Source: Halichondria panicea
Lineage: Eukaryota > Porifera > Demospongiae > Suberitida > Halichondriidae
Reading direction: 5' to 3'
Assembly: GCF_963675165.1 (NCBI RefSeq)
Contig: NC_087377.1
Span: forward strand, 14,938,198-15,002,197
DNA: 64,000 nt
A model generated the notes under the pieces. That model was not told where the DNA came from and searched no databases. It was given only the letters and a program-made list of their open reading frames with translations. Numbering within the stretch: position 1 is the first letter of the stretch; the number at the start of each line of letters is the position of its first letter. Made by a program: the position numbers and the translations under genes. This document shows, one piece after another, positions 947-39,222 of the stretch.

Positions 947-977
<31 letters not shown>

Positions 978-2148: not shown

Positions 2149-2385
2149 GGCTATAAATAAGCTCATGCAACACAGTTGCACAAATCATTAATAATTATTA
2201 TTGTTTCTGTAACTATAAGTTAATATGTACATTGATGAATTTATAAAGTGACCAGGTTGTTATTAGAGTCCTTAAATTTTGTCTGAATATTAATATTGTA
2301 ATCTAGCTTCAGGTTATCAATCTGCATGGAAATACTGACTAATTAATTGGTATTGCATTAATTATTATAGATAAATTTGAAAGTA

Positions 2386-5300
2386 CTAAACCTCCAGCCA
2401 ATTTGAGTTGGGTACCACCACTCTCGTCACAGTCCCATCACTGGACGACACTCTCCTGTGATCAGTGGCAACTCTTTCACTGACTTCCTGAAGTGGAACA
2501 TGCGTGTGCGTGTGGTATGACGTATATTTATTAGTGAAGTGCATAATTATATGCAGCTTATTATTGTGGTATTTTTATATGGACCATTATCAGTCGCTCA
2601 TCTACATGCACAGTTCTCTAAAATCACAGTCTATAGGCTTGGCAGATTATGCTTAGGTTCTCCCGAACATTGAGAATAATGCTGGGAAAAATAGGAGGGA
2701 AAAACTGTCAGCAATTTGTTTTCTTAACTGCATGTTTTCATATTCTACATGTAGAAGACTACCTACTTTATAATACGACATTGATGATGTATTAATACGT
2801 CCAACTATTATGTATATAGCTATTGGGTTGATACTGCCACTCACCTCTTTAGTCTTTTGTGACGGCACTTCCAAATCGACCAATTCCCTGACTGTCCGCT
2901 CACGGTCCTCCCAAGAAGTAGCTCGCCCCACTATTGTCTCCAGACTCCTCCTTTCTCCTCCCACTATGGGTTGGGTCGCTCGAGATAAAAACAGCTCCTG
3001 GCAAATTGTTTGAATGGCCTGTACAATACACGTGTGTATACCATTATAATGATATGCTGAGAGTTAATACAACGATATAATTATATAAAAACACTGTTAC
3101 AGGAATCATAAATTATAATTATTATGCACATGCATACTATTATACATGCATGCAGGTAAGAGGTACGGGTACGTATGATTAGCTATAGAAATAACTCACA
3201 GAGTAAAACTCCCTGAGAAAGAGAGGATTGTTGTCATCAGTGATGTCTCTACACTTGAGATGGGCCAGGCAGTGAAGCATAACTAAAACAAACTCTCCAA
3301 TACTTTCCAGACGCTGCTTTCTAATATAAAGAATCATAGTCGAGTGTTCGTAGTAGAAAGATTTTCGGAAACAGTTTCGAGCGTAGTTATTGGGTGGTAG
3401 ATTGCTTGCAATGAGAATTGTGACTTCTGGCAGATGATTTTGAATGTGAAGGAGCTTGGAACAAAATAATCCAAATCGATACACCACAAAATCGACCGGT
3501 TCCAGTGACTGTACTTCAGTAGGTACTAGTTCTCCATTGCATTCCCACTGTGCATCACGTACATCAATGTAGGGGGTGGAGTTATCGGCCGGAGGGGGAT
3601 TACCAATCGAGAACATTTGCGTTTGAAGGAGCTTCTCTATCTCTGTGAGCTGATTGAAGAGAGGTGTGGCCATGATCAACTTCGTGATTTCAGACTCTTC
3701 ACTGAGCACATTCTGAGGCACTGCGAGCACATTTTGAGGTACTGCTAACGTACTAACTTGATTGACAATATTCTCAGGTATAGATTCCATCCTAGTTGGA
3801 GCGGCCAGATTCTTGGTCGGTAGAGTCACTACCATTGGGGTACTGGGTCGTCTAGTTTGAGCCAGTTTAACTTGCAGCTGTTTCGCCTCTTCTGTATTGA
3901 CCTCGTCCACTCTCTGTTGCTCTTCCTCGTCATCGGCGTGCACTGCTATGGCCTCTTCTACCTCTAACTGCTCGCGTCGCCGCTGTTCCTTTCTCTCCCG
4001 TCGGCGCTTTATCTCCCCCTCTAGACGGTCGACTTGTCTCCTCTTCTCTTTTTCCATGCCCTCAAGCATCTTTCTCATTGTCTCCTTGTGCTCAGCTATT
4101 AGTTTCTGTGTGTAAATTAGTACACTTGTTACTATTGGTCAACAGGTGTAGGATACATATATAGATAATATACAGCCCCAAGACATGCACGTGAAATGCA
4201 AGCTTTTTCATTGGTTCAAGAAAGCACGAAAGAATACCACAAATGTGTGAGTATAAATTATAGTTGTAATTGTATAAAGATCAAAGAAACCACTGTGCAA
4301 ATAATTATATGGTATATTGCACAGTGATGGTACATCAAAGCTATAGTTACCAAGTCCACAGTGCAATTAGCCTCCTTCACCGGCCTTCATAGAAAAGAAG
4401 GCCTGCTATCGACTGCTTGCGCATGCGCTAAATTATTGGATATTTTTTCCCGTAAAATTGCCTATAATACAGAATTCATCAGAGAAAATATCCTAAAAGT
4501 CATACACAGAGCTATATAGCTAGCTAGCTAGAGACAGAGCTGTGTAGGTTTGTTGTACAGCTATTTTCTTCTGATAGAATCAGTAGCAGTAGTATAGTAG
4601 ACTTTCACCAAAGTTAATGTTAAATGGGCGTGGCCTGTCCATATAGGCTCTTGTCAGCTTTCACTCCATTCAAACGATTGTCATCCACGCTGTTGCAGGC
4701 TGTGAGTCTTTTGTTAACATAGCAGGCTAAGGGTAGCTATCAGAGAATGCTATCGGATGGGCTAGAAACCTTCAATCGAACTTTCTATTCTACTTCCTTC
4801 AATCCACTTCCGTTTGTTGTGATGTCATAGTTTTACTGAGCATATACGATGTTATCCAAAGCCCCCAGATACCGGGGGGATATTAGCGTATGCACAAGCA
4901 GTCGATACCAGGCCCACTTCCCTAAGTGAAGTGGGGCGGCTACAGTGCAATATGCTATATTTTTGCATTCCTTATATTTTGCATTCCTTATATCAAAATA
5001 AGGAATGCAGAATGTATGAATCTCATTATAACTATGCCGCTTCTCCCACGCAACAAATCAGTTATTGCATAATCACTCGTGCAATATGCCTGATATTGGC
5101 TCAGTAGCATGGTTGAGGGCTGTATGCACTCGTGCTCATGCAATAACTATAATACATATCTTATGATTGGAACATTTCTGCTGATACCGTACCAATGTCA
5201 ATGTGTAGGTGAATGAACAAGCTACAACATATATCCAAAAATGTTTCCATAAGGTGGTGGGTTCGTGGTGATTAATAAACAATTGTTATAGTGGGTAAAT

Positions 5301-17300: not shown

Positions 17301-20300
17301 CTATAGGGTACCAAGAAAATCAATGCATGGTCATTTTTTATGTACTTATACACTAGATTATGGATTTATTATTATTATTCAATTCATTTACGGATTTCCT
17401 TGAAAATTGACCTAGCTAGCTACACAAATTATGCGTAACAATTGTTGTAGAGCAACAGAGTGACTGTATTGAATTGAATACAATCTCACCTTTGCCAGTT
17501 GAAATGACAGCTCAGTTTTGCTCCTAAGGTAATGCAGTAATGTGTGACTCTTGTAGAGCAGTTGTCTCTGTGAGAGTAGTTGCTTTTTCAGCTCGCCAAT
17601 GAGAGTGATCATCTTGTCATTGTAGTTCTGGGTGAGCTGTCTCTTTGCTTCCGGATTTTTGACCTCCTGCATGTTGTGCGTATATGTTGTGTGTAATTGT
17701 GTGTGCTCATTGCGTATATATATGCATGGTGAACTTGCAGGCTACTTATTTTAATTGCAGCTGGTATGATTACCCTAAGGTCTTTACTGAAAATGTATAC
17801 AAGCCAGGGGAATCGTTGTGTATAGGTACATTGTGTACATCAATAATTATGTATCATAATAAGTTGTATACACCAATTAACATTCTCAGCACATACCACA
17901 GCTTGTTGTACTTTTGCTTGGTAACTCTTCTTTTCATTGCTTATTCTGTCAATCAGTTTCTCAGCCACTTCCACAAATCTTTCATTAGCAGAGGTGTGTA
18001 CTTCAGTAGCCGCTAACTCATCCTCTGTCGGCATGGTTACCAGCTGGTGGACACCAGAGCAGAGTTTGGTCACCAGCTCTGAGCGACACGACTGGAAACG
18101 TTGCTTCTCGGCATGTGACATCTGCACACACACACGCACTCATTTGAATGGGAAGGCTTGAGATTTGCTTCAATACGTCATCATGTAAAGGTATAATTAT
18201 AAGCGATACGAATTCACTAAATAGCTATCTGATGTAAAAAGTGAATATCTGTAAAAGATTAATTAAGCAAATGCATGCATGCACGTGCTGTATTGATGGC
18301 TCAGTGTGCACATGCATACCAATTGTAGCTCTCTGCTCGACATTGAGACTGCTTGCAACTGTTGCCTGCTGCTCTCACAGTCAAAGTCTGCCCCTGAGCT
18401 CTGGACATAGCGACAGACAGTCTCCAGATGTGAGGTCATGTCTCCCATGAACTGTGTAGAACGTCTCCAATAGCTACCCCTACTCACCACCTCCCTCTCA
18501 AGCAACTGAACCTGAGGGAGAGAGCACATGCACCGTCATACGCATTATCCAGTGCATCACACAAACATGTATTACAGTAAACTGATTGGGAGAAATAATC
18601 GATTCAAATGTATTGAACACATGCAATAATAGTTGTAAGGCTCATGCAGATTGTATGTATTGGAAGCAGTATATAGGCTAAACCTTATAGCAACAACATA
18701 ACAGCAAGCTTAAGCATTGTATAGTTTTTCCACGAATGGCACACATGCAGTTGACTCACCATTCCACTGTCCACACGTCCCCCTTCTCTCCCTGTAAACA
18801 CGGCCGCGTCCTGAGGCACTGGCACCACCACGCCATTCTCCGAGCTCCTCTTGGCCCCCACCACAGGGACCAGCCCACCCCCCTCAGAGTTGTACATCCT
18901 ACTCCCCACTGTGATGGGTATCCTCCCACCACCATCCACTGACTCCATGGTACCAGCAAAGGGCTCTCCAATACCTGCGAAAGATGTGATAGACAAGTAA
19001 TAAAAATAGAATACGCATATTATATGACTGACTAAACGATTACTGTGTGTAGGTACAAGTACGAATTTAAATTTACGTTTTTCTGTACCATGCATACGCA
19101 ACATACCAGTAATAGAAGAGATCTCATAGTCCAGTACAGGGACACATGTATTATCTAATGGATCTACGATAGGGTAGCCTAGCAAAAGAGGAAGGGGTTG
19201 ACCAGTTGCTTTGTGCTCCATGTAACAAGGACTGGCTCCATTTTGAGTAAGTTCATAACAAGAATCAATTCGCTGTTGTGTATCGTGAAGTAACTTCATA
19301 CTATGTGCCCGAGAAATTGATTGAGTGCGAGTTAGCTTCGAGTGGATTGTTTCAACTTCCTCAAACTTTTCAGCAAGTTGAGATTCATGTTGCTCATTTG
19401 GAGGAGTTTCTGTAATAGTGTGAAGAACGGTCAGATTATCGAAAAGTCTTGTCTGCCAGTCAAGCTCAGTGGAGTCGAGGAAGGTTTGATAATTTCCTGC
19501 CACCGGAGTCAACTCAATTTCATCAGTACTCAACGCAGCCGATGCTACTATAGCAGGCAGTTCAGAAAGTGGATCGATGAAGTTCTCTCCAACCAGCAAA
19601 GTTTTCCGTTCCCCTTGTAGACTTGTACTACCTCCAATTGGTACGATTTTACCAGTTTGGGGATGAATATCGATACCTAGTATCGGTACAGGCTTCATTG
19701 TATGGGAATCAATCGTGATTGCTCCAATCTGAATAGGAACGAGTAGTCCAGTCACAGGATCACTACAAGTGCCTCCTATTGGTAGTAAGGATTTCGTGTG
19801 CGGGTGTACAGTGACTGCACAAATGGGTACACAGAGGTCAGAAGTGGGGTCCTTCATAGCTCCGCCTAGTTTTAATTGAGAGGCGTACTCTAGTGGTTCT
19901 AGTCCGATGTCAAGTGCTTCACTAGTCTCAGCATTGAGGGGATACGGAATAAACGGAATGAGGGATTGCATTTTCTCTGGCGAGGTATTGGGGAGGTTAT
20001 ACATTGTAACAATTTTTAGGGATACAGGATCAAAGAAAACATTTCCACGAATTGGGAGCACAGATCCAGTATTTAAATCAATGAAATTGTTAGGAAGAAC
20101 CTCTTTTGTGCTTCCAGAAGGTAGACTGATTTTAGTCGATGTACCCGGTTTCACAAGGCCAGTGGTAACGTCTCTAATAGCTACCGATTCGTTACTGTTA
20201 GCGAGTGCTTCTTGTATCTGTTGTACGCTGACTAATTGTCCAGTTTCCATAGAGACAAGCCTCGCTCCTGCATTGTTTTGAGAGACGCGAGTCAGTCCAA

Positions 20301-23300: not shown

Positions 23301-26300
23301 TGAAAAATAGAGCACTTAATTATGAGGGGCAAGGGTTACATGTACACCATGCAGAGCAATGGGCTGAAATAATATGAGGTATATACAACTTCTGTATACG
23401 TATATATGGTCTTAATACATTAGGCTTGAACTTTGAATCTTAAGAACAAAAGCTGATGATTTGTATAATTATAACAAGTAAGGAGGCTATATTCGTTCTT
23501 ACTATTGAGAGATTCGAATTGTACCCTTTCAATGTACTTTCCTATCAAAAAGAATTAACTTGGGAAACATCACACCATAATTGAGCTGCACAAAAATCCT
23601 TGGGCTTCTCTACTTGTGGCTGGGTAAGTAAGAGGTTTCACTATATAATTTATAGCCATATTTTTTTTAGTGCCCATTATTACAGTATGCAGTTTCACAC
23701 TTGTAAATTAATACAAACATTTGCATTAATGAAAATTACACGCTAGACAGTAACATTGACCTTGAAGAGGCCTACCTCTGTCCAACTCTTGCATGGGGTG
23801 TGTCCTCTTCTTAGAGACAAGAGACGAGCCCTTAGAAGAATAGTGGGCCATGTTGAGACGTTTGTTGGACTTTCGGTACTTGGGCTTGTGGAGGACTGGC
23901 TTCGACCAACCATACCTCCGGAATAGAAGCTGTATAGAGTAAGGGTGTACAGTATATGTACTAACTGTAATACTACGGCACTTTGGAAGGAATTTGGCTA
24001 CAAACGGAATTTCAAAGTAGTTTAGAGAGTAATGATTAAGAACTTCTAACAGAGTATACCGGTATAGTATCTAGATTAAATTAAATGAATGATTTGGTAT
24101 AAGTAGCTTAATTAATAGGACGGCATGCATTATGTCATTCCAAACAACTATAATTATAAACAATAATTATAAACTCACCAATGCAATCACTATCCCAACC
24201 ATGACAGCCACTCCCCCTCCGAGCAGTCCACCAATCAGAGCCCAGTTTGGATCCTGTATAATATTACTGCTACGTACCATACCCAGTTGAACGGCTCGTG
24301 AGGGACTTGCAGGATAAAAAGGACCAACTTCCGGACACTGGGAACTTGGCTCAACGACACGCACGTACATGTACCTCTCAGTGGCATCGCTCAAATAGAA
24401 GGAAAACACTCCACTCTGGGTGAACCTGAATGCAAAGAATAAGTTGTCTCCAGTAAGAAGTTGGTCTTCCACGAGTTGGTTGAATAGCCCCAGGTCATAA
24501 TCAGCGTTTATATTGAGCAGATTGGTCTCATCGTAGACTGGGTAAGAAGAGTTTGAAAGAAAGAAGAACAGTAATTGGTCGACTTCAAGGCACACTAGGG
24601 GGTCATCGATGCCATCAAATTGTGGTTGATTTGCAGGATTGCTGGTTGCTTGTCTTCTTCTTCTGGTGGTGATATTGGCTGGTTGGTTGATGGGAGGGGA
24701 GAGGAGAAGGACGAGGGAAACAGGGTTCGGCAGGTAGTTACCACGGAAACCATTGCCTGCACGAGCAAGAAACAGTGGCAGTAGTTATTATTACTCGCAA
24801 TACCTGAGCCTTATACAACAGCATCAAATTCAAGTACGCTTTTTTCAACACATAATCTTATTTATTAAAAGAAAATATTCTTGCAATTTTTATGCACATG
24901 CATTAGTACTCCATGCATGTACATAATTATACGTATAAAGTGCACACTGTTCTAAGTTCTGCTCACCTGCTGTGTCCACAGTGAAAGCTGCAAATGTCCT
25001 GCCGTCCAAAGACGTACACAAATCAGTGGAAAAGAGACCAGGGATATCCGACAGTGCTATCAGTGTCTGCAATTGTGCAGGGAAGGTGAAGTACAAGTAA
25101 TTTCACAATCCCTATAGATCTAGGACCAATTCAAGGGCATAGCGATTACTTTTTCTTTATACGCCCTTGCTAGGATACCTTCATATAATTTGGAAAACTA
25201 AAATGGTTGTATGGCCATGAAACACTGTTTGATTCCGCTAAATGTTCATACTGCGTATAGTTTCACAAAGTGACCCAATAAATAAATTGGTACCACCTTA
25301 TACTTATCAACTCTAATAATGCATATACGTACCTCATTTCCGTTGTTGTCAGTGACAACAGCCGCTGGAGGAGCAAAGCACCTAATCTGGAGTCTGTTGA
25401 CGTTCCTCTGCTGACAGTTGGCATTGCACACATCTGCCAGCACTTGAGTCTGTATACGTGCATGATCAGATGTTACACATAAATAACATTATTTTGTCTC
25501 ACATCATACAGATTTTTATACTGATCTAAGTACTTATATATACTTCCTATTTGAGTACAAAGATCTGCGAATGAATCAAATGTAGTCCAGATAATATAGC
25601 TACTACCCTAAAAAGTCAACAAAAAGTGCCACAAATAAATAATTTCTTTTGCACACAAAATAAAGAACGGAGAAAATTATGTTAGCTTTTAGATGTTGCC
25701 TCAATTAAAGTGACGGCCTCATTTAAATTGCAGGACAATATCTTTAATGGCTTCATTTGAGGCACGATTAGAGCCTATAGGCTTTTCAAGTTCTAAGATT
25801 AGAGTGACACCTTTGTTAGATTTTAACGGCAAGCATGTAAAACAGATCCTTACTTACACACATGCACACTATACACACATGCAGACCACACGCACACACT
25901 GACTCACCCGGCACACACAGATGCCTCTGTTCCTATCCAGTTCCACGTACAGCTCAGGACTCCTGCACCCAAGGCTGGTACAGAACTCTTCCCACTCACT
26001 GAGGGTACGACACACCCCGTCATGTGACCTGATCTGATCTTCCCCACACAGGGGATAGATGATAAGCTGACAGTCTCCGGCAGTGCGTCCCTCATACTGT
26101 GTGAACCCAGCTCTGCACGGGCACCGTCCATCACTCGGCTGTACATGTGTGTGTGTGGAAGGAGGAGGAAAGAATGGACTCCTTAACCGAGTGCATGTGA
26201 CTAAATCCCAACACACAATTTATACAACCATGTATGCAAGCAAGTACACAAATGCATATTTTATAGCATGCTTTCCCTAATACATGAACTTCAAAAATAA

Positions 26301-29300
26301 TGCAGTCATGCAACAATCAGCTGGAAATCTTATTTTACCACACAGTCTATTTAGGGCTGCTACAAGCAATTCAATTCGAAAAATACAATTATTACGTACA
26401 TTATACAACTGCTTATTTTATTGTCTAATACACTACACTGATATAGTCTCACCTGAAATCTCCTGTTGTTTCCGCTGCATACACACTCCACCGACCCCTC
26501 GGCTATTGTACTGGCCTCAATCGAGCAGTTGAAGCATGCTCTCTGACCAACAAGATGGCTGAAGCTACTCAGAGGACAAGGCATACACACAGACGAATTG
26601 CTCTGCCCCTCAAGAGAATTGAACATGCCCATTTCACAAGGAGACGGAGATAAACTACCAGCTTCACAATAATGACCAGCCGGGCATATGGAAGCATTGA
26701 AAAACGGCAAAATTCCAGGATCACCAAAAATAGAACCTCCAACACAATAGTACCCCTCAGGACATGTTAGACAAATCCTCTCTTCTGTTAGTGACGATGC
26801 ATTGCTGTATGTTCCCCCGGGACAAGGTTCACAAGTGACATAAAGTGAACTTCTGGTAAAGTTGTCACCCAAATTAACAATCTCTCTGTAGCCAATTGGA
26901 CATATTTCAGGCCGAATAGCTCCAGCTCCGATGATGAATGCACCCTCACAACCAGGTTGCTCGCAGTAATGATCTCTAGGACATTCAATAAACCATGCCA
27001 ATCCTTCAGGGCAATAGTAACCAGAAGGACACGGCAATTGCAGGTCCGTCCGTGGGCAGTAGAATCCGGCTGGGCAAGGTGTAGGGGTGACAGTGCCCTC
27101 AAGGCATATATCCGATACGTTACAAGGAATGCCGTGTATGGTAGCATTGTCAGGACAATAAAACTGCGCAGGGCACAGATAGCAGTCATTGGAAGTAGCA
27201 GCCGCAGTTTCATTTCTGTGGGTGCCCTGAGGGCAAGGAGTGGGTGTAATCGACCCACCTAAGCAATAATGACCCAATGGACACGGATCATGTAGGAAAG
27301 TCACCATTGATTCGTTAGGGCAGAGATATCCAGGCTCGCAAGATATACATTCGCTGATGAGAGAAGCACCTTCTAAAGGATTGTAGGTACTTGGTGGGCA
27401 TGCCATTGCAGTGCCTGACAGACAATAGAATCCAGGAAAGCACAAAGTGGCAACACTTCCCGAACACATTCGACCAGCAGGGCAGTCGGTACAGTCTTCA
27501 ACTTGTCTACCTCCTCTGAGAACGTTAAAAAGGCCCAGGGGGCAACTAGTTCCGTTTACAGCACCCTGAAGACAGTAGAATCCCTCAGGGCAAAGTTCAC
27601 CAACACTTAAATCGGTACCGTCTGGATTAGGTACAGCAGAGCCTTGATAACAGAGATAACCAGCTATGCATTCACCGACTATTGCACCAGCAATACAAAA
27701 GTGGCCTGGTATACACGGTGTACATTGCTCTGGCAATGATAACCCATTTGTTTCACTGTTTGTAAAGGTACCATTCGGGCAAAATATCGGCTCAAAACTT
27801 CCTTCAGGACAAAAATGTTGTGGAGGACATATTTCGGGTTCAATGGTACCTATAGTACAAATATGGCCTGCCGGACAAATGGTGCAATTACTAGCACCAA
27901 ACAGACTTGAAAACGATCCTTTCGCGCAAGGTGTCGGGATGATAGTACCTTCAGAGCAAAAATGACCCAATGGGCATGCAAAGTCACTCGGATTCGGCAC
28001 AGATATCGAAGAATTGTGTGGGCAATAGTAGCCAGAGTTACATGGACCAGTAGGTAGCGTGGAATTGAGATAACCACAGTAGAAGCCTCCAACACAAGGA
28101 ACGCAATCACTTTCACTTTCAAGTCTCAGGGCAGGTATCGGAGAAAGTGTGGTGTTCAACTCGCAAACAAATTCTAAGAGATATGAAGTTTCATTAGCGG
28201 GTATTGCATTGCTGAATGGGGCTGTAGTTCCAAGCGGGCATGGTTGAGGATTTGAAGTTCCTTCCGTACAGTAGAAACCTGCCGGACAGGGGGTATTGAT
28301 ACCATCAAAGGGAGCTCTGCTTGCAGACCCAGCCACACATACAAATCCTGCACTGCACGTTCCTGTTGGAGATAGGAGACCAGTTGTCTCACAATACATA
28401 CCACTCGGACAAGGCAAGCAATCTGTGACATTTGTATTACCAGAAGAATTTGAATACGAGCCAATTGGACACGCAATTCCATCGGTCGACCCTTCCGTAG
28501 GACAATAGTGCCCCAGGGGGCACATGGTAAAATGGATTTGTGCAATAGACTCACAAATTGCTCCTGCTGGGCAGACAATACATTCACTCTGGCCTGCATT
28601 AGGCTGATAACTTCGAGGTAGACAAGTCTCTTCTGACAATGCACCACTTACACAAAAATGACCAGCAGGGCATGAGTAGCCAGTCACATTGTCGACAGGG
28701 TTCGCCACAAAAGCTCCAAACAGACAGACAAAACCCGGATCACATACTAGAGCAGTTCCGTTGACAGACGCCTGAGGACAGTAATGACCCGGGGTGCATG
28801 CTATGCAGAAGGTCACGTTGTGGTTGAGTATAGAAGCAGAGTATGTACCAGCAGGACAAGGTATTGGGTTAGTACCACCTATAGGACAGTAGTGGCCAGC
28901 CGGACACATTGTATCTTGTGGCGAAGGGGTAATACTTCCTGATAGACAAAAGTAGCCGGCAAAACACAGTCCACTTGTCTCAGTAATACCAGGCTGATTG
29001 CAGTAGTGACCAGGTGTGCATGGTGTACATTCTGTTGAGTCAGTTAGTCCTGTGAGATTGCTGAATGTTCCATTTGGGCACGGAAACTCTGTCGCAAATG
29101 ATGTACCGTTAGGACAATAGTAGCCCTGAGGACAAATTGAATTGTTGAGGAGTACAACTGGTTCGAAACGATTATCACAGTGGAAAGAAGCTGGGCATAT
29201 TTTACAGTCTGTCTGTCCGATTTCATCTTGGTAAGTACCTGACACACATCTCATCGGCTGTAGTACACCCGCAGTGCAGAAGTGGCCTTGAGGGCAGATA

Positions 29301-32300
29301 AAATCAAACGGATTGCTCACTCTCTGTCCAGGGGGGCAATAATAGCCCCCATCACATACTCCACTCGGAGACGACAGTCCGTAGTCACAGCAATACATCG
29401 TAGCAGGACATAATTCACAGCCTTCCGATTCGTTTCGAGCTTGCAAGACTTGTCCGAATGTTCCCGGTGGACAAGCAGTGAAATTTATACTTCCTTCCGT
29501 ACAATAGTGCCCTGTTGGACAGACATCTCCAATCATTCCATCAGTAGGCTGGGGACTACTTGCTCCACTAATACAATAATAGCCATTATTACATAATCCC
29601 GTTGGTGCGATATTTGCGAATCCAGCACAGTACATTCCAGGGGGGCAGGAGAGTGGAGAATTCGCATCAGGAGGGCAATAGAATCCAGGCTCGCATGGCT
29701 CTCCTGTCGGTGAAATAGAACCGGGAGCACAAAACGAGCCTGCATTGCAAATACCACTTGGAGCATCAAGTCCAGTACCATTGCAAAACAACCCTGCTGG
29801 GCACATTAGGCAGACAGACGAATCAATGGATGTTGTGCTTGGATTGTACGTTGACAAAGGGCATGGAAATTCGAATGCAAATCGTGTTCCAAGAGGGCAA
29901 TAGTAGCCTGAGGGACAAGGGTTCAGTGCTGGATCTTCAGTGGAACCTTCACAGTAGAATCCCGCTAGACAATTTGAGCAGACACCACTGCCAGTGCTAT
30001 TAGTGTAGGTACCAGGTAAGCATTGCATAGGAGCAGAGGAGCCTTCAAGACAAAAGTGCCCCTTTGGGCAAGTATCTCCGCTTGGTATATTCAATGGGAA
30101 AGAAGTTGAACTGCCATTAATACAGAAGTAACCTTCAGCACACAATCCAGATGGAGAAGTGAGACCTGACTCATTGCAATGTCTACCGGGATCACACAAT
30201 AAACAGTTCCCTTCTTCGATATTGAACATACTTGGGGAGTAGGTGCCGGGTGGGCAGGGGGTGGGCGATGAAGAGTTCAAAGGACAATAAAACCCTGCTG
30301 GACACGGTCCGTTTGCCACAGAATCCAAAGGTCGAGGGTTAGTACTTCCTGATGAGCAGAAATAACCAGGATCACATGGTCCAGATGGTGTGGTTAGTGC
30401 GTCAGAATTGCAATAATAACCAGCAGGGCATGATATACATTGAGACTCATCAGCCAAACCTTCTCTAGTTCCTAGTGTACTAATCGGACAAGCGCTGTAG
30501 TCAAGACTATTGCCACCAGGGCAGTAAAAACCTGCCAGACAAATTGCAGGTTGAGTCGTCGAGCTGAGATGACAAAAATGACCTGGGGGGCAGGTTAAAC
30601 AAACGCTAAAACCGGTAGAGTTGGAATATGTTCCAGATTCACATGGAATTGGAATCGAGGTTCCAACAGTGCAAAAATGACCAATAGGGCACGCATCACC
30701 CATTTCTCCGTCACTTGGAGAGCCAATTATGGCCCCGCCAATACAAAAATAACCAGAGTCACACATACCACTCGGAGCAGTTAGCCCGCTAGTATTGCAA
30801 TGCATGCCTGGAGGACATGGTATACAGTCTCTTTCGGTAGCAAGACCTCGAGATGAGGAAAATGTACCCGCAGGACAGGGAAATCCTCCTCCAGATCCCT
30901 CAGGGCAAAAATGACCGGCCATACATAGATCACCAAACGTGACTTCATCAGATTCAATCGGATTTGGTAGATTAGAATTTCCAAAACACGCAAAACCGGC
31001 TAGACACAAACCCTCAGGCTTGGTAAGTCCTCCGCTAGCACAGAAGTACCCAGGGGGGCATGAGAGACATTCGGCCAGTGAGGATATTCCAGTCTGATTG
31101 TTATAGGTACCTGGAGGGCACGGGGCTGGATCAAATGAACCTTCTTCGCAGTAGTGACCTATCAAACAGAGAGTGACATTTGTACTGCCATGATCGGGAC
31201 AGTAGTGTCCAGGGGTGCAAGGGTAACATTCACCAGCTGCAGTACGAGGCATCCACGTTCCTACATCACAGGGTATAGGTGCTGCAGATCCCACGGGGGT
31301 GTAGTGACCAGCCATTGTGACAGTATCGTTAGGAGTTTTAGCGCCCCCAGGGCAATAGTAGCCGGCATTACATGGGCCAGTAGGTTCAGGAGTGCGAGCA
31401 TTCGAGCAGTAGAAACCGGGTGTACATTCGGTACAGTCGAAGGTATTCGTCGATCCAGACGTGTTACTAAAGGTGCCTGGTGGACATGGCAAGCTGACGC
31501 TTGAGCCTAAAGGACAGTAGCCTCCAGCAGGGCAAATTTCTCCAGAACTTCCATCGGTGGGTGTCGAAGTATTTGCTCCAAGATAACAGACAAAGCCGGG
31601 ATCGCAGGGAGCTCTTGGACTAGTTAAACCTGGTGAATCGCAATACTGGCCAGTAGGACATGGTACACATTGTAGTACATCAACAAGACCAGTATCAATA
31701 CCAATAGTTCCTACAGGGCATGGAATAGGAGCTTTAAGCCCAGCTACGCAATAAAATCCCATTGGACATACGGCTGGATTCGCCGACCCTTCGACGCAGA
31801 AACTTCCCTCAGGACATTCAACACAATCACTTAACTCGGCACTTGTGAAATTGTCTTGATAGGTTCCCCCAGGGCATGGTATTTGGGTTGGCCCGTACGA
31901 GCCAATATTCCTGGATAGTTGACCGTTGCTGATATTAGTGGGACAGTAAAAACCCGGCTGGCACGGCCCTGTGGGAAGAGTGGCGTTCTCGAGGCAGTAA
32001 TAGCCAGCTGTACACGAGAGACAGTCGGAGAGAGAGGATTGACCTTCGAGGGGATTGTACGTACCGGGAGTACAGGAAAATTCCCGGGGGGTGCCTATGA
32101 GGGGCGGGACAGAAGCAATGATTTCAAGAAAACATACAGAGTACAATGTTTCACTCACTTTATGCATATCAAATTATAAGGAGACATGGTATAAACTTTA
32201 CAAAACATAAGACAATGGGATGTATTATCCTGAAACTGTGTACAGAAACAATCATGCTTCCATGCAAACATTCAGTCATCAACATAGTTGTAATTGACAA

Positions 32301-35300
32301 TGAAGTAGTCAAAACAATTATTAGGCCCTCTATATAGCTAGCTCTGAATAATGAACGCTGTATAATTATACTTGTAAACGATTATAATTATTTCTGTCCT
32401 CAACTTTACTTTTCTACACAAAACATAATATAGACTAATTATTATGTCATTATGATAACATAACGTATATAGACTAATTATTATGTCATTATGATAACAT
32501 AACGTACGTATATACATGCAGTAACATTAATTTTAACCATTGCGATTGTGATCCATCAGCTCACCTTGTGGGCAGTAGAATCCAGTAGCACACAGTACAC
32601 TCTCTGCAACGTCACTCAGACCGGCAACGCAATAGTTTCCAGGTGGACACTGTTTATTCACTCTCATATTTTCTTCAGACGTTGTATTCTCATCGCAATA
32701 ATGGCCCACCAAACAATCGAAACAAAATACCGATCTTGGTGGTGAAAACAAACCAAGACCGCAATCAACTGGAAAAATACTACCCTCCACACAAAATTGA
32801 CCTCCTGGGCACACCAAACAGTCACTCTTGTTTCCGATAGGATCGCCAATGGTTGAGTCTGACACGGCGTCATAGCCATGGGGATTATATGTGCCAGCAG
32901 GGCAGGCCTCAGGGGTTGCAAATCCACGTTCGCAGAAATGTCCTATAGTACAGTTTAGGCAACTAGACGTCGAGTTTTGACCAAATAGGGGGTTATAAGT
33001 TGTTTTCGAACATGGGAATTGGTGCGGTAGTGAAGTATCCTCCGGGCAATAGTGACCCCTTGGACATACGTCCGTGGGGCCACCTCCTCCCCCTATACAA
33101 TAGTGACCAGCTGGACAAATCGAGCACTCGATTGCTGAAGTGAGATCGGAAGATTCTGTGAAAGTTCCTGAGGGACAAGGGTACTTGTTAGGGGCGGGCG
33201 TGCCCATAGGACAATAATGGCCCGGTGCACATGGTAAAGGCTCGGAGAAGTTGAATCCAGTCGCAAAACCACAAGCCTGGCCTGCCGGGCAAATATCACA
33301 TTGTTCAGGACTTTGCAGGTCAATTCTGAAAGTGACAGTTCCTGGAGGACATGGGTACTGATTCGGATAAATAGTTCCATTTGGACAATAGTGACCCTCA
33401 TTACAAGTGTGTGAAGGTTCTGTGAGAGCGATGGTTGGACACGACATTCCAGCAGTGCATAAAATACAGTTAAATTCGTGGCCAGTTCCGTTCAGAGGAT
33501 TGTACGTACCTGGTCGGCATGGCAATGGAGACACAGTCGAATGAGAGCTATTTCCCGATGGACAATAATGGCCGACAGGGCATTCTATACACTGGCTGGC
33601 TTCGTGGAAACTTGACCCTGGTCCATAAGTGCCGAGGGGACAGGGAGTGTGATAAGGGGTGGGTGTGCCTTCAGCGCAGTAGAATCCTGCCGGACATTCA
33701 AGACCTCTGCTACTACCCTGAGGACAGTACATGCTGGCCGGGCATATTGCAGTGCATCCAGTCTCTACGCTTGTCTGCATCGTCCGATTGTTGAAGGTGC
33801 CCGCGGGGCATGGGAATTCTTGTGCAAATGTCGTACCAGCAGGGCAATAATAGCCCTCGGGGCATGTATTGGAATCGAACGAAATGGAACCCGGATTCGG
33901 ACAGTAATATCCCGGAGGACATAGTGTACAACCTTCTTCTTGGCTTCCGGCTCCGGTAACATTACCATAGAAACCGACGGGACAGAGGAATAAGTCTTGA
34001 CCGTCACACCACGCACCGATTGGACAAATTTGATCAAGTGGAGTGGGGGTAGTTGATGTTTCGAGGCATTGGTAACCATGGTTGCAGGGCAAACAGATAA
34101 GGCTGGCAGGTTGACTCCAGGTACCCAGAGAACAAGCCAGCGGTAAAACTGGAGAGGGGTGAATTAGTGATTAAAATACGCATGTGTACAGTAATGCTAT
34201 AAATATGCATACCACATTGAGCATAAATTATAGGTTTTACGTTGATTCTATATTTATATGACATCTTGAGCCTTCCCTTATCATCACAATTATCATTGTC
34301 AATTTGTCTGCTAACTTGTCACATCGGCACATTTGCAATGGTTTTTCACTTGCTAAACGCTTCAGTACAATATAATTTTACTCCACATTCATGCAAAACG
34401 CGATCATGCATACACTCACTGGTAGGATCCTGACACGTGTATCCAGCATCACAGAGCGTGCAGTTAATAGACCCGTCTAAACTGTACGTCCCTGGAGAGC
34501 ATGGAGTGGGTGTGGCTTCAGGAACGGGGCAAGCAAAGCCTCGGGAACACATGAAACAAGAGGCAGAACTACCAGGAGAGTAGTAGCCAGTAGGACATTG
34601 GGTTCTGGGGAATGAGGAGTACTTTGAATGAACTGTGAATGAAGCATAATTTATAGAGCACAAAACCACTATAATTATGCTCTGTAAATGGTACTACAAA
34701 GCTATATTGGAGTAAAACAGGGTGCATGTATATATATATATGGTGACATTTCACAGTACACAATGAGCTTATAGTGTGCATGCATTACATGCACACACAG
34801 CGCTCAACCACTCACTACCATGAAGCTAATCAGAAAGCTTCACACTAATAGTAGTGTATATAGCGCTCACCTGGTATCCATAGTGGTGGATGGGCACTCA
34901 TAGCCGGGAGGACACTGTGTGCAGGAGCTCTGATTGCCAAGAGAGTATGTGCCTGGGGAACAGTCTATCATTGTGGCTCGATCAACAAAAGGACACTCCC
35001 TGGGAAAAATATTGTTGCTGCATAATTTTTAACTTACTTTTTTTGATACATAATAATTTATTACAAAATGCAGCAATATACACACTATAGTATTACATTT
35101 GAACATTCACATGCTCAGTGATATACTTACATTCCAGCCGGACACATTGTACACTCAGTCTGCACCCCAGTAGAGAATGATCCAGGCACACATGGCAATT
35201 CCAAAGCCTGATCAGAGAGAGGACAAGCAAAGCCAGGGGGACAAGACACGCAGATTTCACTCCTAACCCTACTGTAGGTGCCTGACGAACAGACGAGGTT

Positions 35301-38300
35301 TGAGGAACCATCGCTAGCTGAGCAGGCCATTCCAGGTGGGCAGGGCGTGCAAGACGTCTGGTTACCGAGGGAGAAGCTGCCAGGCTCGCAAGGAAACTCA
35401 ATGGCTGAGCTATAATGAAAAGCAGAGTTTGAAAGATACTATAAACACAACTCAATAATTAAAGTCATAATTATAGAAATCGACTTTCAACAGATAATCA
35501 CACTCCTTTTCCAAAGTGTAGCGTTCACCCCTGACGAAAAGTCAGGCACCCATGTCCCAAATAATAACAGTTCACAAGGTAACCTCTGTAGAATGGCCAA
35601 CATTTATTTTCCAAAAGTTTATAAAGAGGCAACTAGACACGTACTATTTTGATTTAGTTTATAGTCTTGGTTGCTACCAATAGCTTAAGTTTCGATGTTT
35701 AGAAATTGTTCGGCGAACGTAGCTAACGTGCATTGACATAATTATCTTAAACGGGCAATTTATTCAGTTTTAGAGGCAATTCCACAAAAGTTAAATGCCT
35801 CAAAAATGTCGCGTATACTACATACTCACCATGCATCAGGACAGTACATTCCAGGAGGACAGCTAGTGCAGGTCACCTGACCTCCAGGGGAGTAGGTGCC
35901 GGGAGTACAAGGGGTCATAGTGACAGAGGTAGTGGTGTCTGGACAGGAGTGACCCGAGGGACAAACAGTACAGTTTGTAGACCCTCCATCACTTACATAG
36001 CCTGAATGGAATGAATTATACAAAAAGTTTCATCTGTTACTGTTTGTAACAAAGTAATACACATGCAAAATGAACCTATTTGGCTTGCACACTTAGTCTA
36101 GTAGAACGTCAAGCAATATTCTTACAAAACGTTCACCCCACATAATCAGCTCACCAGGTGGACAAGGGCTGGGAAACCGACTCGTGAGCGGACATTCAAA
36201 TCCAGCAGGACATAATGTACACACCTCGTCACCAGCAGCACTGTAGTAGCCATGGTCACAGGGTAGAGGCTCCAGGGCAGGACCAAGGCAGGAAAAACCA
36301 GCCTCACACAGAGAACAAAAAGTGGCATTCTCAACAGAATAGGTACCTGGAGGTAAGTTTTTGCTAGCTATACATAATGAACCTTTGAGTGGATATAAAA
36401 TCCATGTACTGCCAATTTTGCTAACCAACTTTGAGGGCCATATAAAAACTTCACCTGCTGGACAGGAGAGTGGGGGGTTGGTGGTGGTGGGGCAATGATT
36501 TCCAGGCGGGCAAAGAATACACGTAATGCTAGACTCATTGGAGTAGGTGCCACTAGGACAGGGAGAGGGCAGATCGTAGGTCGTCAGACAATAGGATCCG
36601 GAAGGACAAGTAGTGCAAAGTGGATCTAGAGGGTATAATATGATTGTGATTTTGTGCATTCGAGGGGACTATTATACCTCAAGCAAATAAAATGTAGCAA
36701 AAGAAAGCAAATCGTATAATACATGGTTCATTAGCCTGATAATTAACAAAGCATTTCTAGGATTTTGCTGACGAAATTATCTTACTCAATTTTTCCTTTT
36801 CAAATTTCAAATTTCAGGAGTATTATACCCTCAACAGGACACGTCGTGTATATATATATGTATATAACTATACCTCCTTGCAAGCTGTACTCTCCGGACA
36901 CACAGGGCATTGGAAGACTTCCATTGGAACATGCAGCACCAGCTGGGCAGAGCAGACACTCTACACTCCCTAACGGTGAGTAACTCCCAACAGAGCACAA
37001 TAGTGGCAGAGCATCTTGAACGTGGCACGCATAGCCCTGAGGGCAAACGATACATTGTGTATTTTGGCCTGGTAGGGTGTAGGTGCCGTTGGAGCAGGGT
37101 AGTGGTGGTTGTCGGGGGTCAGGACAATAGTGACCCGCTGGACAGGCAGTACAGATGCTGTGAGTGGAGTCAGGAATTGTTCCTGTATGGAGAATTAGCA
37201 ATATAATTATACTTCACACAATTATACAACGTATGTGTCAGTGTCTCCTTAACAATATTATATGTGTGAGCTTATTAATTATGTGTATATCATTTAAAGT
37301 AGGTCATTCAATGTAGCTATACATTGACCTAATATTTAAGCGAGAACATGCATACATGCAGGTACAACAACTATAATTGTATATAGACACTCATGATAAT
37401 TGGCAATAATTGCATGCACTCACCACTATCACACAGTGTGCAATTGTCCTGTCCTCCCACTGCAATGTATCCAGCTTGACAAGGCAGTGGTACAGATGCA
37501 GGACTGCTGCAGTAATGACCCGGTGGACACACGATACACTCACCAGCACCCTCAGTACTATAAGTCCCAGTATTACAAGGAGTGCAGTCTACTTGTAGCT
37601 CCAGGCTGAATGTACCAACCGGACAAGGTAACGATTGTATTCCATTCAAGCACTGGCGTCCTATTTCACACAATGTGCAATTCAATTGTCCAGTCACATT
37701 GTTGTAAGTACCAGAAGGGCAAAGTGTAGGTACGAGAGAAGGATCAGTGCAGAAATGGCCAACTGGGCACAGAGAGCAATTACAAGATCCGTTGATGGCG
37801 TACTGACCCTCTGAGCAGTCTTGAGGGATAGTAGTGGCTGCCTGAGGGCAAGAGGTACCCACAGGACATTGAGTACAACTTACAGAGCCAGCTGCAGCGA
37901 AAGAGCCGGGGTTACAGGGGTCAGGAGAAAAGGATGGATCAGGACATCTGTGACCACCAGGACATTCTGTACAATTTGTTGATTCAGTTTCATTCGAATA
38001 GAATCCCGACGGACAAGGTATTGGAACAGAGAATGAAAAAGGACATTTAGCTCCAACCGGACATTCCATACAGTTTATTGCCCCTGTGTCTCCACTGACG
38101 ACAGCGTACAACCCACTGATGCAGGGTGTGGGTGCGGAGGTACTGATGTTGGGGCAAGCTGTCCCACTCGGACAAGAGAGACAACTAATTGAACCTGTTT
38201 GTCTAGCATATGTGCCAGGCTGGCATGGCTGCAATAGAGAGCATTTCTTAACAGTATAATGCAAAATGTTTACCACAAAACCACAGTCATGCAATGATAA

Positions 38301-39222
38301 ACATCAATATAATTATATATACTGTTCTTTGGACGCAAGCAAGTAAAACTCCCCTCTATATATGCAGGGGCGGATACAGGAATATTGGAAGGGGGGGCTA
38401 ATCACCAGAACATTTTCCTAAAAGAAAGAGGTCAATCGTTTTTCCAGTATAGCAATTTTGAACCGTTTTTTGGTATCGTATATATGCCCTTTGGAAGAGT
38501 ATAGACTATATAGCTAGCAGTGTTGTTGCATGCACAATAGGACGTGCACTGATACATGCAGACTTGCATGCAGCCAGCTTGCTCCACCTGGGACAACTGC
38601 CCTGCATTCAATGGCTAGCTATTAATTAACCTTGTTTTTGCAGCATAGCAAGCACATTCTCTTCCTGCACCTCCATGAGTTTATAATTATAGTGTACTCC
38701 CATTGTATTATAACTCTTTGCTATTGGATCAGCACAATATTAAAAGCTGCATGCATGGAGTTAGGGCTGAAAATCAGCACTCACTTGACAAGCGGAGCTG
38801 TTGATCTGTCCTGTGATTTTATTGGCTGTTCCAGGGAGGCAGGATTGAGGTGCTGATTGGGAGCCTTCACAGCTAGAAAGGAACCAAGTTGATATTAAGG
38901 TGATAACCAACTAATACAAAGATTGCACAAAGCTGTCAAAACACAAAAAGTACACATTACTCAGCACGCAATCGATTTTAAAATTCCTTGCATTGTGCAA
39001 GCAAGCGCAAGCGCTGTGTGCAGTGATTGCTAACTTAACTTACTAGAATCCGGATGGGCATTCTACACATTGTCCAGTACCATTCCCATTCACCAGTACC
39101 AGATACTCTCCGGGATTGCAAGTATTACTGCATACAGTGGAGCTACTACAACCCACATACAACACAAGCATCAGCAGAAGTGACAATGGCAGTACTACCT
39201 CGTTAGAGGAGAGTAATGCCAT
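2386..39222 (-). CDS. Giant single-pass membrane protein: GCC2/GCC3 ectodomain, TM, cytoplasmic repeat and coiled coils
   Basis: I assembled 38 exons (minus strand, 5' to 3'): 39222-39044, 38872-38785, 38228-37424, 37182-36874, 36625-36455, 36346-36155, 36001-35830, 35409-35131, 34999-34871, 34604-34420, 34148-32565, 32094-26453, 26138-25908, 25449-25333, 25066-24967, 24756-24179, 23929-23776, 21789-21635, 21480-21343, 20788-20577, 20359-19107, 18974-18760, 18511-18320, 18121-17897, 17666-17490, 17300-17132, 17022-16700, 16623-16424, 16198-16061, 15827-15680, 15500-15087, 14861-14748, 14498-14232, 14100-13972, 13780-12971, 4105-3200, 3018-2845, 2487-2386 (stop TAG). They total 17,376 nt, divisible by three, giving 5,791 residues, and every junction agrees in phase. 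Order: signal peptide (hydrophobic core VVLPLSLLLMLVL), GCC2/GCC3 cysteine modules to about residue 3245, membrane-proximal region, TM at about 3565-3590, then a basic stop-transfer, a DPxTG repeat and coiled coils. Extracellular ligand or matrix binding with cytoskeletal attachment is inferred. The architecture matches no named protein I know. One intron uses a GC donor (14747). A small exon could have been missed. Confidence 0.8.
4368..4942. mobile_element. MULE-like foldback MITE, 9-bp target duplication (copy 1)
   Basis: 575-bp element starting TAGCCTC and ending in an imperfect inverted copy (GGCGGCTA), with arms of about 70 bp. Each arm contains a GGCC-loop-GGCC mini-palindrome followed by TATCGACTGCTTG and a GC-rich TGCGCATGCGC-type motif. 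It is flanked by a perfect direct repeat CAGTGCAAT (4359-4367 and 4943-4951). There is no transposase ORF. It is related to the elements at 54371 and 59039. Confidence 0.8.
5362..5743. mobile_element. hAT-like MITE with 5-bp target duplication
   Basis: 382-bp element with ends CAGGGTCGTAGA and TCTACGGCCCTG. It is flanked by ATCTA on both sides (5357-5361 and 5744-5748). Inside, a segment around GACCTTTTTTTAGG occurs twice (near 5535 and 5675). It is non-coding and lies in the 8.9-kb intron of the giant gene, upstream of the nested CARD gene. Confidence 0.7.
5860..5951 (+). repeat. 46-bp perfect tandem duplication
   Basis: Two identical adjacent units (5860-5905 and 5906-5951) just upstream of the nested CARD-protein ORF. 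It creates a spurious N-terminal extension of that reading frame. Confidence 0.9.
6073..7272 (+). CDS. CARD (death-fold) protein with second helical domain, nested antisense in giant gene intron
   Basis: Uninterrupted frame of about 399 residues from ATGATG at 6073/6076 (MMATGGVG or MATGGVG) to TGA at 7272. The frame is open upstream to 5833 but only through the 46-bp duplication and non-ATG sequence, so I place the start here. The N-terminal ~95 residues (HKALKKSHIILVSC, ...LDVLSRDNRTEL, ...FFNTFISEV) have the six-helix spacing of a CARD-like death fold. After a Ser/Asn/Glu linker comes a second helical unit containing the sequence YSWVNYGLLEDIIDTF and a basic end (LSKRRKG). From memory, a similar unit accompanies death domains and NLRs in sponges and cnidarians. 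A role as adaptor in innate immune or cell-death signalling is inferred. A weak acceptor (TCTCACAG, just before 6061) leaves room for an upstream exon. It lies on the strand opposite the host gene. Confidence 0.65.
   Translation: MMATGGVGISDTYRQSGNPKHKALKKSHIILVSCIKQSPQTIVGRLIQLDVLSRDNRTELTDMNDRTAKATKIVDIITDRVEQEPSFFNTFISEVMEKEPWMERCLEKVNKNFEYARAKSSHNSNDNSDIESESSSYVSAVSTQPVGLYKHLNEAESDQTVIITKFSEVHLENMTIDIQRKFVSLETRVADALEKNGVTSRSLIFYLKGLEAVKSDKIKVKRACLYFDENFIRNVKRKCLDVYDVFEMIRDYYSWVNYGLLEDIIDTFLCENDAIQKKLRKYEDQYKKYCENRVCDIPRNGFMRLSKRRKGIEKVFKIDYKWDEIRMDRIETIRDRINTVLNFNSHTLGLKVLRNGCVEVTFEIPEHVADAVFPLTEDQVQILKQHSIKFLGELMYIKL
7718..8231. mobile_element. MITE with CAGAGGAG termini and 9-bp (or 8-bp) target duplication
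   Basis: 514-bp element with inverted arms of about 65-70 bp (left 7718-7790, right about 8171-8231), both containing TTGGTCACGATTG and CCTCCAATTCC in opposite orientation. Its ends read CAGAGGAG and CTCCTCTG. Flanks AGGCCACAG are at 7709-7717 and 8232-8240. The CAG ends suggest hAT, but a hAT duplication would be 8 bp. Non-coding. Confidence 0.7.
8242..8326. repeat. Imperfect palindrome sharing a core with the 50.6-kb hairpin
   Basis: Left arm TGTAGCTTAGACTCGC...CCCTTTTCTC pairs imperfectly with GAGAAAAGGG...GGGCTACA across a G-rich loop. The core AGCTTAGACTCGCAAGCC is identical to the arm of the perfect hairpin at 50610-50670. It sits directly beside the MITE at 7718-8231. Confidence 0.6.
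9547..10643 (+). CDS. GTPase-like membrane protein with degenerate P-loop, nested antisense in giant gene intron
   Basis: The frame opens after acceptor CCTTACAG (9546) and ends TGA at 10643. The first in-frame ATG is only at 9648, so an upstream exon is likely, or translation starts at 9648. The frame from 9547 encodes about 365 residues. An acidic N-terminal segment is followed by a Ras-like core: beta strand WKIVAFG, then GQQNANKS (about 9780-9803). This P-loop reads GxxxxNKS instead of GxxxxGKS. A G3-like strand (VEVWDID) lacks the usual DxxG glycine, and no clear NKxD/TKxD motif is visible. AIG1/IMAP-like or another TRAFAC descendant is possible, with nucleotide binding doubtful. Two C-terminal TM helices (about FSVYLAVITALIFTI and LDVAVIIASGFMILF) anchor it. 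Two further hydrophobic ORFs follow immediately. Confidence 0.55.
10640..11304 (+). CDS. Two overlapping hydrophobic ORFs downstream of the GTPase-like gene (possibly its frameshifted tail)
   Basis: ORF B (10640-10912, 90 residues) begins in an ATGA overlap with the GTPase-like stop. ORF C (10909-11304, 131 residues) begins in a second ATGA overlap with the stop of ORF B. Each predicts several hydrophobic helices (LLINYTVVLVCDVAVLA; FFLLFLLLPLCFF). The region is T-rich, which alone tends to keep frames open and hydrophobic, so chance is possible. The alternatives are a multi-TM C-terminal domain broken by two frameshifts, or 3' UTR. I cannot assign a function. Confidence 0.3.
11925..12305. 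mobile_element. pogo/Tigger-like MITE with TA target duplication
   Basis: 381-bp element with near-perfect terminal inverted repeats CAGTAGAACCTCGCTAATCC and its reverse complement. It is flanked by TA at 11923-11924 and 12306-12307. CAGT ends with a TA duplication are typical of pogo/Tigger Tc1-mariner relatives. There is no transposase ORF. It lies in the 8.9-kb intron of the giant gene. Confidence 0.85.
18760..20359 (-). other. Cytoplasmic 15-18-residue DPxTGxxVPIxG repeat region
   Basis: Exons 20359-19107 and 18974-18760. Short units recur: IDLNTGSVLPIRG, DPTSDLCVPI, HPHTKSLLPIGG, DPVTGLLVPI, DSHTMKPVPILG, HPQTGKIVPIGG, DPLDNTCVPVL, then glycine-rich variants. I count about a dozen. The period and the alternation of an acidic/His-Pro turn with V/L-P-I suggest a beta-hairpin or solenoid repeat. 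I do not recognise it as a named domain. It lies between a helical juxtamembrane segment (exons 21789-20577) and the coiled coils. Confidence 0.75.
22124..23089 (+). CDS. Single-exon seven-transmembrane receptor (rhodopsin-like GPCR), nested antisense in giant gene intron
   Basis: 321-residue uninterrupted frame with ATG at 22124 and TGA at 23087-23089. The N-terminus is short and has two glycosylation sites (NST, NYS). Seven hydrophobic helices lie at about residues 20-46, 54-77, 96-121, 134-156, 178-206, 222-247 and 254-280. Cys90 before TM3 and Cys169 in loop 2 can form the conserved disulfide. The DRY position is degenerate (MSIVHYLTIRW) and NPxxY is replaced by YPSYLLL. A basic, Cys-containing tail follows (GKCKKIRDKMCRRK). 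It is a plasma-membrane receptor by topology with ligand unknown, and it probably belongs to a lineage-specific intronless GPCR family. It lies in the giant gene's 21790-23775 intron on the other strand. Confidence 0.8.
   Translation: MKVMNSTNYSIVEPGTVYIASGVAHILLVIIPTIILGSIVLAIFISNKKLRDPVSVVFIFSSAWSIAGPLSYGLLMDVSLITDREVIGSCQNYSSRIFWIAFATFQAGLLVINAYMSIVHYLTIRWGINKVSLRVTAAVLFISLTVTLLICMVNFVGLSSPLKVRGSLCLHPSSFTDTMVIGGSALIFLSLPICIVVGVFFSLTIRYVKKNTIANTNLVKSVTKIIVSWTIFVIASQSVPVTAFLIRTHSKGSIVVYNVAWFFIYSVEISYPSYLLLVLFLHKTVRETFIGKCKKIRDKMCRRKQPKTIEVKQQVFDINII
23776..24756 (-). other. Membrane-proximal region, RRRR site and transmembrane segment
   Basis: Two exons, 24756-24179 and 23929-23776. The first contains RRRRQ about 140 residues outside the membrane, a plausible furin-type cleavage site (inference). 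It ends in NWALIGGLLGGGVAVMVG followed by IVIAL. The next exon starts LLFRRYGWSKP, so the intron splits the membrane helix and a strongly basic cytoplasmic stop-transfer follows. This fixes type I topology. Confidence 0.85.
26453..32094 (-). other. 5.6-kb single exon encoding about 1,880 residues of GCC2/GCC3 repeats
   Basis: One uninterrupted reading frame from acceptor CTCATAG (just above 32094) to donor GTGAGA (below 26453). It is internal to a gene whose other ectodomain exons are mostly 90-800 nt. The exon at 32565-34148 (1,584 nt) has the same texture. Repeats share the motifs CPxGHFC, CxPGTY and TGPCxxGYYC but have diverged, so this is not a recent tandem expansion. Confidence 0.85.
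32429..32506 (+). repeat. 39-bp tandem duplication in intron
   Basis: Two identical copies starting TATAGACTAATTATTATG, period 39, in the giant gene intron between the exons ending at 32565 and starting at 32094. Confidence 0.85.

Follow-up and report, generated by a model that had tools for sequence, protein, structure and literature searches.

A predicted giant single-pass membrane protein of Halichondria panicea with a GCC2/GCC3-type arm, a long helical cytoplasmic part, and a diverged paralog

Eph receptors combine a GCC2/GCC3 module with a single transmembrane (TM) helix. SVEP1 and SCUBE, which are also animal GCC2/GCC3 proteins, are secreted or peripheral and have no TM plus helical rod, and the ELAPOR1/ELAPOR2-type proteins are type I proteins with a short tail that are several times shorter than the protein described here. 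Adhesion is linked to the cytoskeleton by, among others, the desmosomal cadherin-plakin and integrin-talin systems. In apicomplexans, CRMPs are large cysteine-rich proteins, some of which have Ephrin-receptor-like modules and coiled coils according to a figure legend in PMC9815656, and a passage of the same article gives nine TM domains for the two Toxoplasma CRMPs. Choanoflagellate Glutamate-class receptors, as described in a section of PMC12716839, carry Ephrin_rec-like modules outside the cell and are 7TM proteins.

Here, we describe a gene on the minus strand of a 64,000-nt window (the whole stretch of DNA analyzed; G000:C1:14938198-15002197, from a genome of 131 Mb in 39 contigs). Its predicted protein shares the GCC2/GCC3 (Ephrin_rec_like, PF07699) module and the single TM with Eph receptors but has an array of thousands of residues outside and a helical rod inside. 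Ephrin_lbd (PF01404), fn3, kinase, and SAM were not listed in any of its 38 exons scanned singly, a kind of scan that does find PF01404 in an open reading frame (ORF) elsewhere in this genome (on C3, see below), and identity as an Eph receptor was rejected on the lack of these four parts. The type I arrangement recalls ELAPOR1/ELAPOR2-type proteins, as does a match of exon 8 to TNFR_ELAPOR1_6th, which at 29.3 bits against a cut-off of 33.2 falls short of ELAPOR membership. Compared with SVEP1 and SCUBE, the protein adds a TM and a helical rod to GCC2/GCC3 modules. It may work in a way similar to the cadherin-plakin and integrin-talin systems, with an arm outside and a rod inside, but no sequence relation to them was found, and here both arms would belong to one polypeptide. 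CRMPs are likewise large and cysteine-rich, some with Ephrin-receptor-like modules, but this identity was rejected because the window protein has one predicted TM against the nine given in that part of PMC9815656, together with a long cytoplasmic rod. The choanoflagellate receptors have similar modules, but are 7TM in the cited section of PMC12716839, whereas the window protein is predicted to be single-pass.

Novelty was judged against Pfam, NCBIfam (five exon stretches), PDB by sequence, and the literature searched. The intracellular exons, scanned singly, contain no Pfam family above cut-off, in agreement with an earlier reading of this DNA from its letters only (the sequence-only reading), which had put forward no named family with this domain order. 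NCBIfam gave nothing above cut-off on the five stretches, and PDB gave no sequence match for the repeat exon (E up to 10) or for one rod exon (E up to 0.01). Among the literature matches listed, from a search with subscription journals and preprints outside its scope, we recognized no description of this order, and the portions of PMC4224354, PMC3447736, and PMC6019070 consulted contain nothing on it. Uncharacterized orthologs in other animals are likely, which is our expectation.

Gene model and paralog

Stop-to-stop reading of the minus strand, a home-made gene finder, and hand curation together gave a curated model that runs from an ATG at 39222 to a stop at 2386 with all exon phases compatible. 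The first curation comprised 38 exons and 5,781 aa without internal stops, and 36 of its 37 introns are GT-AG, the remaining one being GC-AG (donor after 14748). Because it completes a cysteine unit, an exon 4 donor at 36874, likewise a GT, was adopted in place of 36904. The resulting length equals that of the sequence-only reading, whose giant gene at 39222-2386, with 38 exons and 5,791 residues, was in this way rebuilt as one open frame. Several splice donors in the helical part of the curated model are weak, and a small exon may be absent between exons 2 and 3, because a cysteine unit is truncated there. The gene finder, whose first training set partly included exons of this gene, scored 1,824 on the gene strand, 212 on the opposite strand, and 106-116 on three shuffles; when trained on paralog exons only, it scored 1,062, 114, and, on two shuffles, 14 and 53. 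In this held-out form it overlapped all 38 curated exons (22 of them exactly) and split the gene into 67 automatic exons.

We found that the window gene is one of two paralogs, a point that refines the earlier reading. A genome search with the membrane-proximal exon matched one other place, C9:3716021-3716503 (E 3.5e-10), and the 60 kb examined there hold a gene of 4,911 aa in a hand-trimmed model, or ~4,930 aa with a probable first exon. In trimming, the automatic first exon and exons 7-9, which overlay an opposite-strand ORF, were dropped, and exons 24 and 25 were merged. The order of parts is that of the window gene, namely a signal-peptide-like start, a cysteine array, RRRRR, a TM, charged helices, and a C-terminal domain, after which the paralog ends in an extra helical tail. 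BLASTP aligned window residues 161-3797 with paralog residues 16-3637 across the TM (34.9% identity over 3,852 columns, 1,855 bits) and window residues 4433-5764 with paralog residues 3437-4734 (22.4% over 1,400 columns, 4e-101), the second alignment overlapping the first by ~200 paralog residues and being helped by low-complexity helices. In the array, the longest matched stretches are 44-46% identical, and the largest paralog exon nevertheless scores 18.8 bits against PF07699, below the 23.1 cut-off; the array has therefore drifted from the Pfam model. The cysteine-dense stretch ends near residue 3,400 in the window protein and 3,200 in the paralog (200-residue bins).

The cytoplasmic parts were aligned after removal of the repeat exons 21-22, because BLASTP gave these no partner. 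Four of the 26 junctions listed lie within 2 residues of each other and in the same phase in both genes, with three unmapped; these common intron positions are only suggestive, given a weak alignment of the rod in which the 24 exons are each 12-50% identical. Genome queries with the ectodomain (26/26), the C9 membrane-proximal domain (2/2), and the C9 C-terminal domain (2/2) matched these two loci only, and repeat-exon and rod-exon queries matched in the window alone. Since the genome searches score the best candidates only, two members here means two found. At the level of sequence, the diverged paralog supports the domain order of the window protein.

The sequence-only reading had allowed for two genes with a break near 24.2-21.8 kb, which is contradicted by a single paralog exon (L015:5595-7118) that spans this junction. 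Its matches are window exon 16, which precedes the TM (30% identity, E 1e-15), and window exon 18, which follows the TM (41% over 34 residues, E 6e-7); both E-values are for single comparisons. Because the paralog exon is uninterrupted, we take it as the main evidence that the locus, as judged by this comparison, is one gene and not two. An erroneous joining of two adjacent genes between 24.2 and 21.8 kb might draw on the length of the interval 24178-21790, on the one AATAAA and one ATTAAA within it, and on the 886 bases 3′ of the proposed stop at 2386, which hold neither signal. However, both sides of the junction are covered by one paralog exon, the BLASTP alignment is continuous through it, the single AATAAA compares with 2.4 expected, and the splice phases fit through exon 17, so that this reading is very improbable and was rejected on the paralog evidence. 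Much the same applies to a decayed gene or a prediction artefact, which we consider highly improbable. The model is a prediction from genomic sequence, contains several weak splice sites, and was recovered exactly by the held-out gene finder in only 22 of 38 exons, but its 5,791 codons contain no internal stop, the gene-finder controls (opposite strand, shuffles) score far lower, and comparison with the paralog points to protein-level constraint. The open frame, the controls, and this constraint led us to reject decay.

Parts of the predicted protein

The features of the gene are collected in Table 1. Pfam was searched with each of the 38 exons, or its ORF, on its own, so that a domain interrupted by an intron could escape notice.

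Table 1. Features of the giant gene in the window
Feature	Position	Strand	Evidence
Whole coding span, 38 exons, 5,791 aa	2386..39222	-	Curated splice model, 0 internal stops; paralog alignment
Exon 1: signal-peptide-like segment (residues 9-27) and first cysteine unit	39044..39222	-	Hydropathy
Exons 1-12: GCC2/GCC3-type cysteine-rich array, residues ~28-3245	26453..39222	-	PF07699, Cys counts
Exons 13-15: post-array region, cysteine-containing	24967..26138	-	No Pfam match at E 0.1
RRRR, furin-type R-x-[KR]-R site, residue 3426	24653..24664	-	Sole such match in ectodomain
Membrane-proximal domain, ~residues 3447-3553	24281..24601	-	29% identical in paralog
Predicted TM helix, residues 3572-3590, into first three codons of exon 17 at 23929	24179..24226	-	Hydropathy 2.71
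Exon 17: basic juxtamembrane segment (inside)	23776..23929	-	Phase-compatible splice; paralog alignment weak, 7/40 identical
Exons 18-20: first cytoplasmic helical segment, common to paralog	20577..21789	-	Exon 18 E 6e-7
Exons 21-22: proline-rich block, DPxTGxxVPI-like units, residues 3807-4296	18760..20359	-	No paralog match
Exons 23-36 (part): long charged helical rod, residues ~4297-5480	3860..18511	-	Periodicity, ion pairs
Conserved C-terminal domain, from residue ~5530, continues in exon 37	3200..3712	-	42% identical to paralog over 125 residues
End of C-terminal domain, exon 37	2968..3018	-	Paralog alignment

The hydrophobic stretch that follows the ATG resembles a signal peptide, as had been proposed, and by hydropathy this stretch and one TM helix make the protein a type I single-pass protein, with ~3,571 residues outside and 2,201 inside, in line with the sizes given earlier; the topology is otherwise predicted. 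A third hydrophobic segment (residues 2477-2495, score 1.68) lies inside the cysteine-rich region and was not taken as a TM. Residues 1-3320 hold 364 Cys, and C-x2-C-x5/6-C motifs number 57, compared with a mean of 7.8 and a maximum of 16 in 200 shuffles. PF07699, the only Pfam family above cut-off in the singly scanned exons, places the protein among GCC2/GCC3 (Ephrin_rec_like) proteins and bears out the ectodomain assignment of the sequence-only reading: it exceeds the curated cut-off in exons 3 (ORF, E 6.4e-19), 4, 7, and 12 (ORF, E 2.3e-16 with 14 stretches; this exon alone has 5,642 bp), falls below it in exons 5, 6, 8, and 10, and is unlisted in exons 1, 2, 9, and 11, the last with a 545-aa ORF in which it was not listed at E 1.

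Three parts absent from the earlier reading are a furin-type site, a membrane-proximal domain, and a conserved C-terminal domain. The paralog has RRRRR at the position aligned to the window RRRR, with R-x-[KR]-R nowhere else in either ectodomain, and this motif suggests cleavage by furin. Between the basic site and the TM lies the membrane-proximal domain (~107 residues), which had no Pfam match and no PDB sequence match at E up to 10; its strand pattern gives the impression of a cupredoxin-like fold. Over 156 codons of this stretch, the differences from the paralog at the three codon positions are 0.60, 0.44, and 0.63, and 11 of 16 fourfold sites differ, a pattern that protein-level constraint would produce.

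For the inside, the sequence-only reading had proposed a repeat plus a coiled coil. The repeat is present in exons 21-22 (11 loose regular-expression matches to the DPxTGxxVPI-like unit) but has no partner in the paralog, so the block was probably gained by this copy or lost from the paralog. The long helical part is also supported, with a rod of ~1,180 residues of charged helix, but its description as a coiled coil less so, as periodicity lies nearer 3.67 than 3.5. Specifically, hydrophobic periodicity in residues 4297-5480 peaks at 3.67 (z 7.3, versus 4.9 at 3.5), and the paralog rod (residues 3634-4480) gives z 5.5 at 3.67 versus 2.3 at 3.5. The peak lies at 3.67 in five of the six segments of the window rod, residues 4830-5000 have no helical periodicity, and a peak at 3.6 occurs in segment 3640-3806, before the repeat block, and in the paralog tail (4750-4911). 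Among controls, the repeat block is flat, the ectodomain reaches z 3.5 at 3.4 but has no excess at 3.5 or above, and a synthetic heptad behaves as intended, with 34.6 at 3.5 and 19.6 at 3.67. A fixed-phase 3.5 signal is found in residues 3640-3806 (p 0.04), 4297-4550 (p 0.004), and, marginally, 5399-5480 (p 0.05), and in none of the four segments of 4600-5398. Ion pairs are enriched (i,i+4: 98 versus 75.9, z 3.1; i,i+3: z 2.1). These data support a long helical rod. As most of it has a period nearer 3.67 than the 3.5 of a heptad, "coiled coil" is too specific a term, and a simple heptad coiled coil along the whole rod lacks support.

The C-terminal domain matches the paralog at E 1.5e-24 on its own. 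Over 160 codons, differences at the three codon positions are 0.50, 0.39, and 0.63, with 17 of 27 fourfold sites differing, and these values therefore suggest an old duplication with constraint at the protein level. Both copies contain HxxxH (HCLAH/HTLAH), which gives the impression of a degenerate zincin-like, SprT- or YgjP-like fold. Neither Pfam nor PDB by sequence gave a match at E up to 10, a genome-wide YgjP profile search listed two other places and not the window and C9 loci, and a search with the C-terminal alignment gave 123 pattern matches in viral contigs and 65 in prokaryote genomes, of which none was confirmed.

Possible functions

We tentatively read the product of the single gene, a giant protein of type I topology, as a furin-processed adhesion tether. 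Its ~3,200-residue GCC2/GCC3-type arm would reach outward, perhaps for 100-200 nm (by rules of thumb), and attach to matrix, to another cell, or to a partner arm. Cleavage by furin at the single basic site that immediately precedes the membrane-proximal domain would make the mature receptor two-part or allow the arm to be shed, and the rod and C-terminal domain would hold an intracellular partner, probably cytoskeletal. The open 38-exon frame, the order kept in the paralog, the aligned basic site, and the constraint are consistent with such a tether, and we would also count for it the lack of a known signaling domain above cut-off in the singly scanned exons and the distribution of N-glycosylation sequons (73 outside, 9 inside). 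Against it, most rod segments have no clear heptad signal and one has no helical periodicity. The partners named are guesses, as the Pfam scan of the 38 single exons gave no known cytoskeleton-binding domain. The earlier suggestion of a possible mechanical linker or giant adhesion receptor seems reasonable.

The arm might instead bind a ligand or microbe, with cleavage or shedding and signaling by the C-terminal domain. GCC2/GCC3 modules occur in receptors too, both copies carry a single furin-type site near the membrane, and the 42% identity of the C-terminal domain is high, but a signaling or capture receptor of this kind is somewhat unlikely, given that no kinase, other known signaling domain, or catalytic domain stood above cut-off in the 38 singly scanned exons and that a simple receptor would not be expected to have an arm and a rod of such length. 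A structural role in a specialization of the cell surface (e.g., microvillar or ciliary links), as a spacer or coat protein for which distance and not binding specificity would count, could account for the similar length of the cysteine-dense stretch in both copies despite ~35% identity. This reading is quite unlikely, as the C-terminal domain is conserved more than the rod and specific binding there is therefore suggested. The adhesion tether might, in a wider and more doubtful version that we hold to be unlikely, represent an undescribed animal family of giant one-piece, furin-split tethers that run from the exterior to an intracellular partner, contain two uncharacterized conserved domains, and form a junction or surface link independent of cadherins, integrins, and plakins.

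If expressed as modeled, the product would be a very large single-pass membrane protein. The paralog marks the arm, basic site, membrane-proximal domain, TM, rod, and C-terminal domain as the core and the proline-rich repeats as optional. The comparison provides target domains short enough to clone for localization and pull-down, and the two conserved domains that Pfam does not name could be sought in other animals.

Other loci and features of the window

Five of eight matches in the genome search for GCC2/GCC3 fell in C3. These places were rejected as further members, since the ORFs tested carry PF01404 (E 3.5e-7, above cut-off) in one case and fn3 in another; they were also unmatched by the window ectodomain, membrane-proximal, and C9 C-terminal queries. 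By eye, among the matches listed, G000:C3:6.67-6.73 and 6.78-6.83 Mb (L021-L031) hold many similar ORFs with Eph ligand-binding-like, fn3, and Sushi-like parts, in an apparent tandem array. Ephrin (PF00812) had no match in the genome but none in control genomes either, which is not evidence of absence. The Ephrin_lbd and fn3 matches in C3 ORFs would suit the genome of an animal or of a near relative of animals: passages of PMC6993872 place Ephrin_lbd in Metazoa and note distantly homologous sequences in choanoflagellates and filastereans. PMC6485061 in part describes Eph-like architectures that lack the kinase, from cnidarians, sponges, and ctenophores, as well as a cupredoxin origin of ephrins. 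That part of PMC6485061 bears on the C3 array and not on the window gene.

A 368-residue ORF on the opposite strand in a paralog intron (L014:2897-4000, minus) looks by eye like a 7TM receptor and had no Pfam match at E 0.01. In the window, a bacterial-code scan gave no tRNA, and no Rfam match reached the gathering score. The 8.9-kb intron at 12970-4106 holds plus-strand ORFs at 5827-7272 and 9528-10643 whose matches to CARD (E 0.0023) and AIG1 GTPase (E 7.4e-4) are weak and below threshold, possibly a nested immune-type gene. At 42863-46842 (+), an IgGFc_binding ORF (E 5.7e-52) is followed by a Sushi ORF (44207-44752, E 2.5e-17), and by tandem repeats with a 251-bp unit (94% matches) and a 272-bp unit (77%); this is probably a recently expanded Sushi array. 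A reverse-transcriptase ORF (RVT_1, E 6.5e-43) lies at 51375-53249 (-), and around it, ~5.4 kb apart, opposite-orientation copies of a 22/43-bp unit of the CCAATCGGTTTGTCGATCA type at 50716-50799 and 56216-56297 are possibly the ends of a mobile element.
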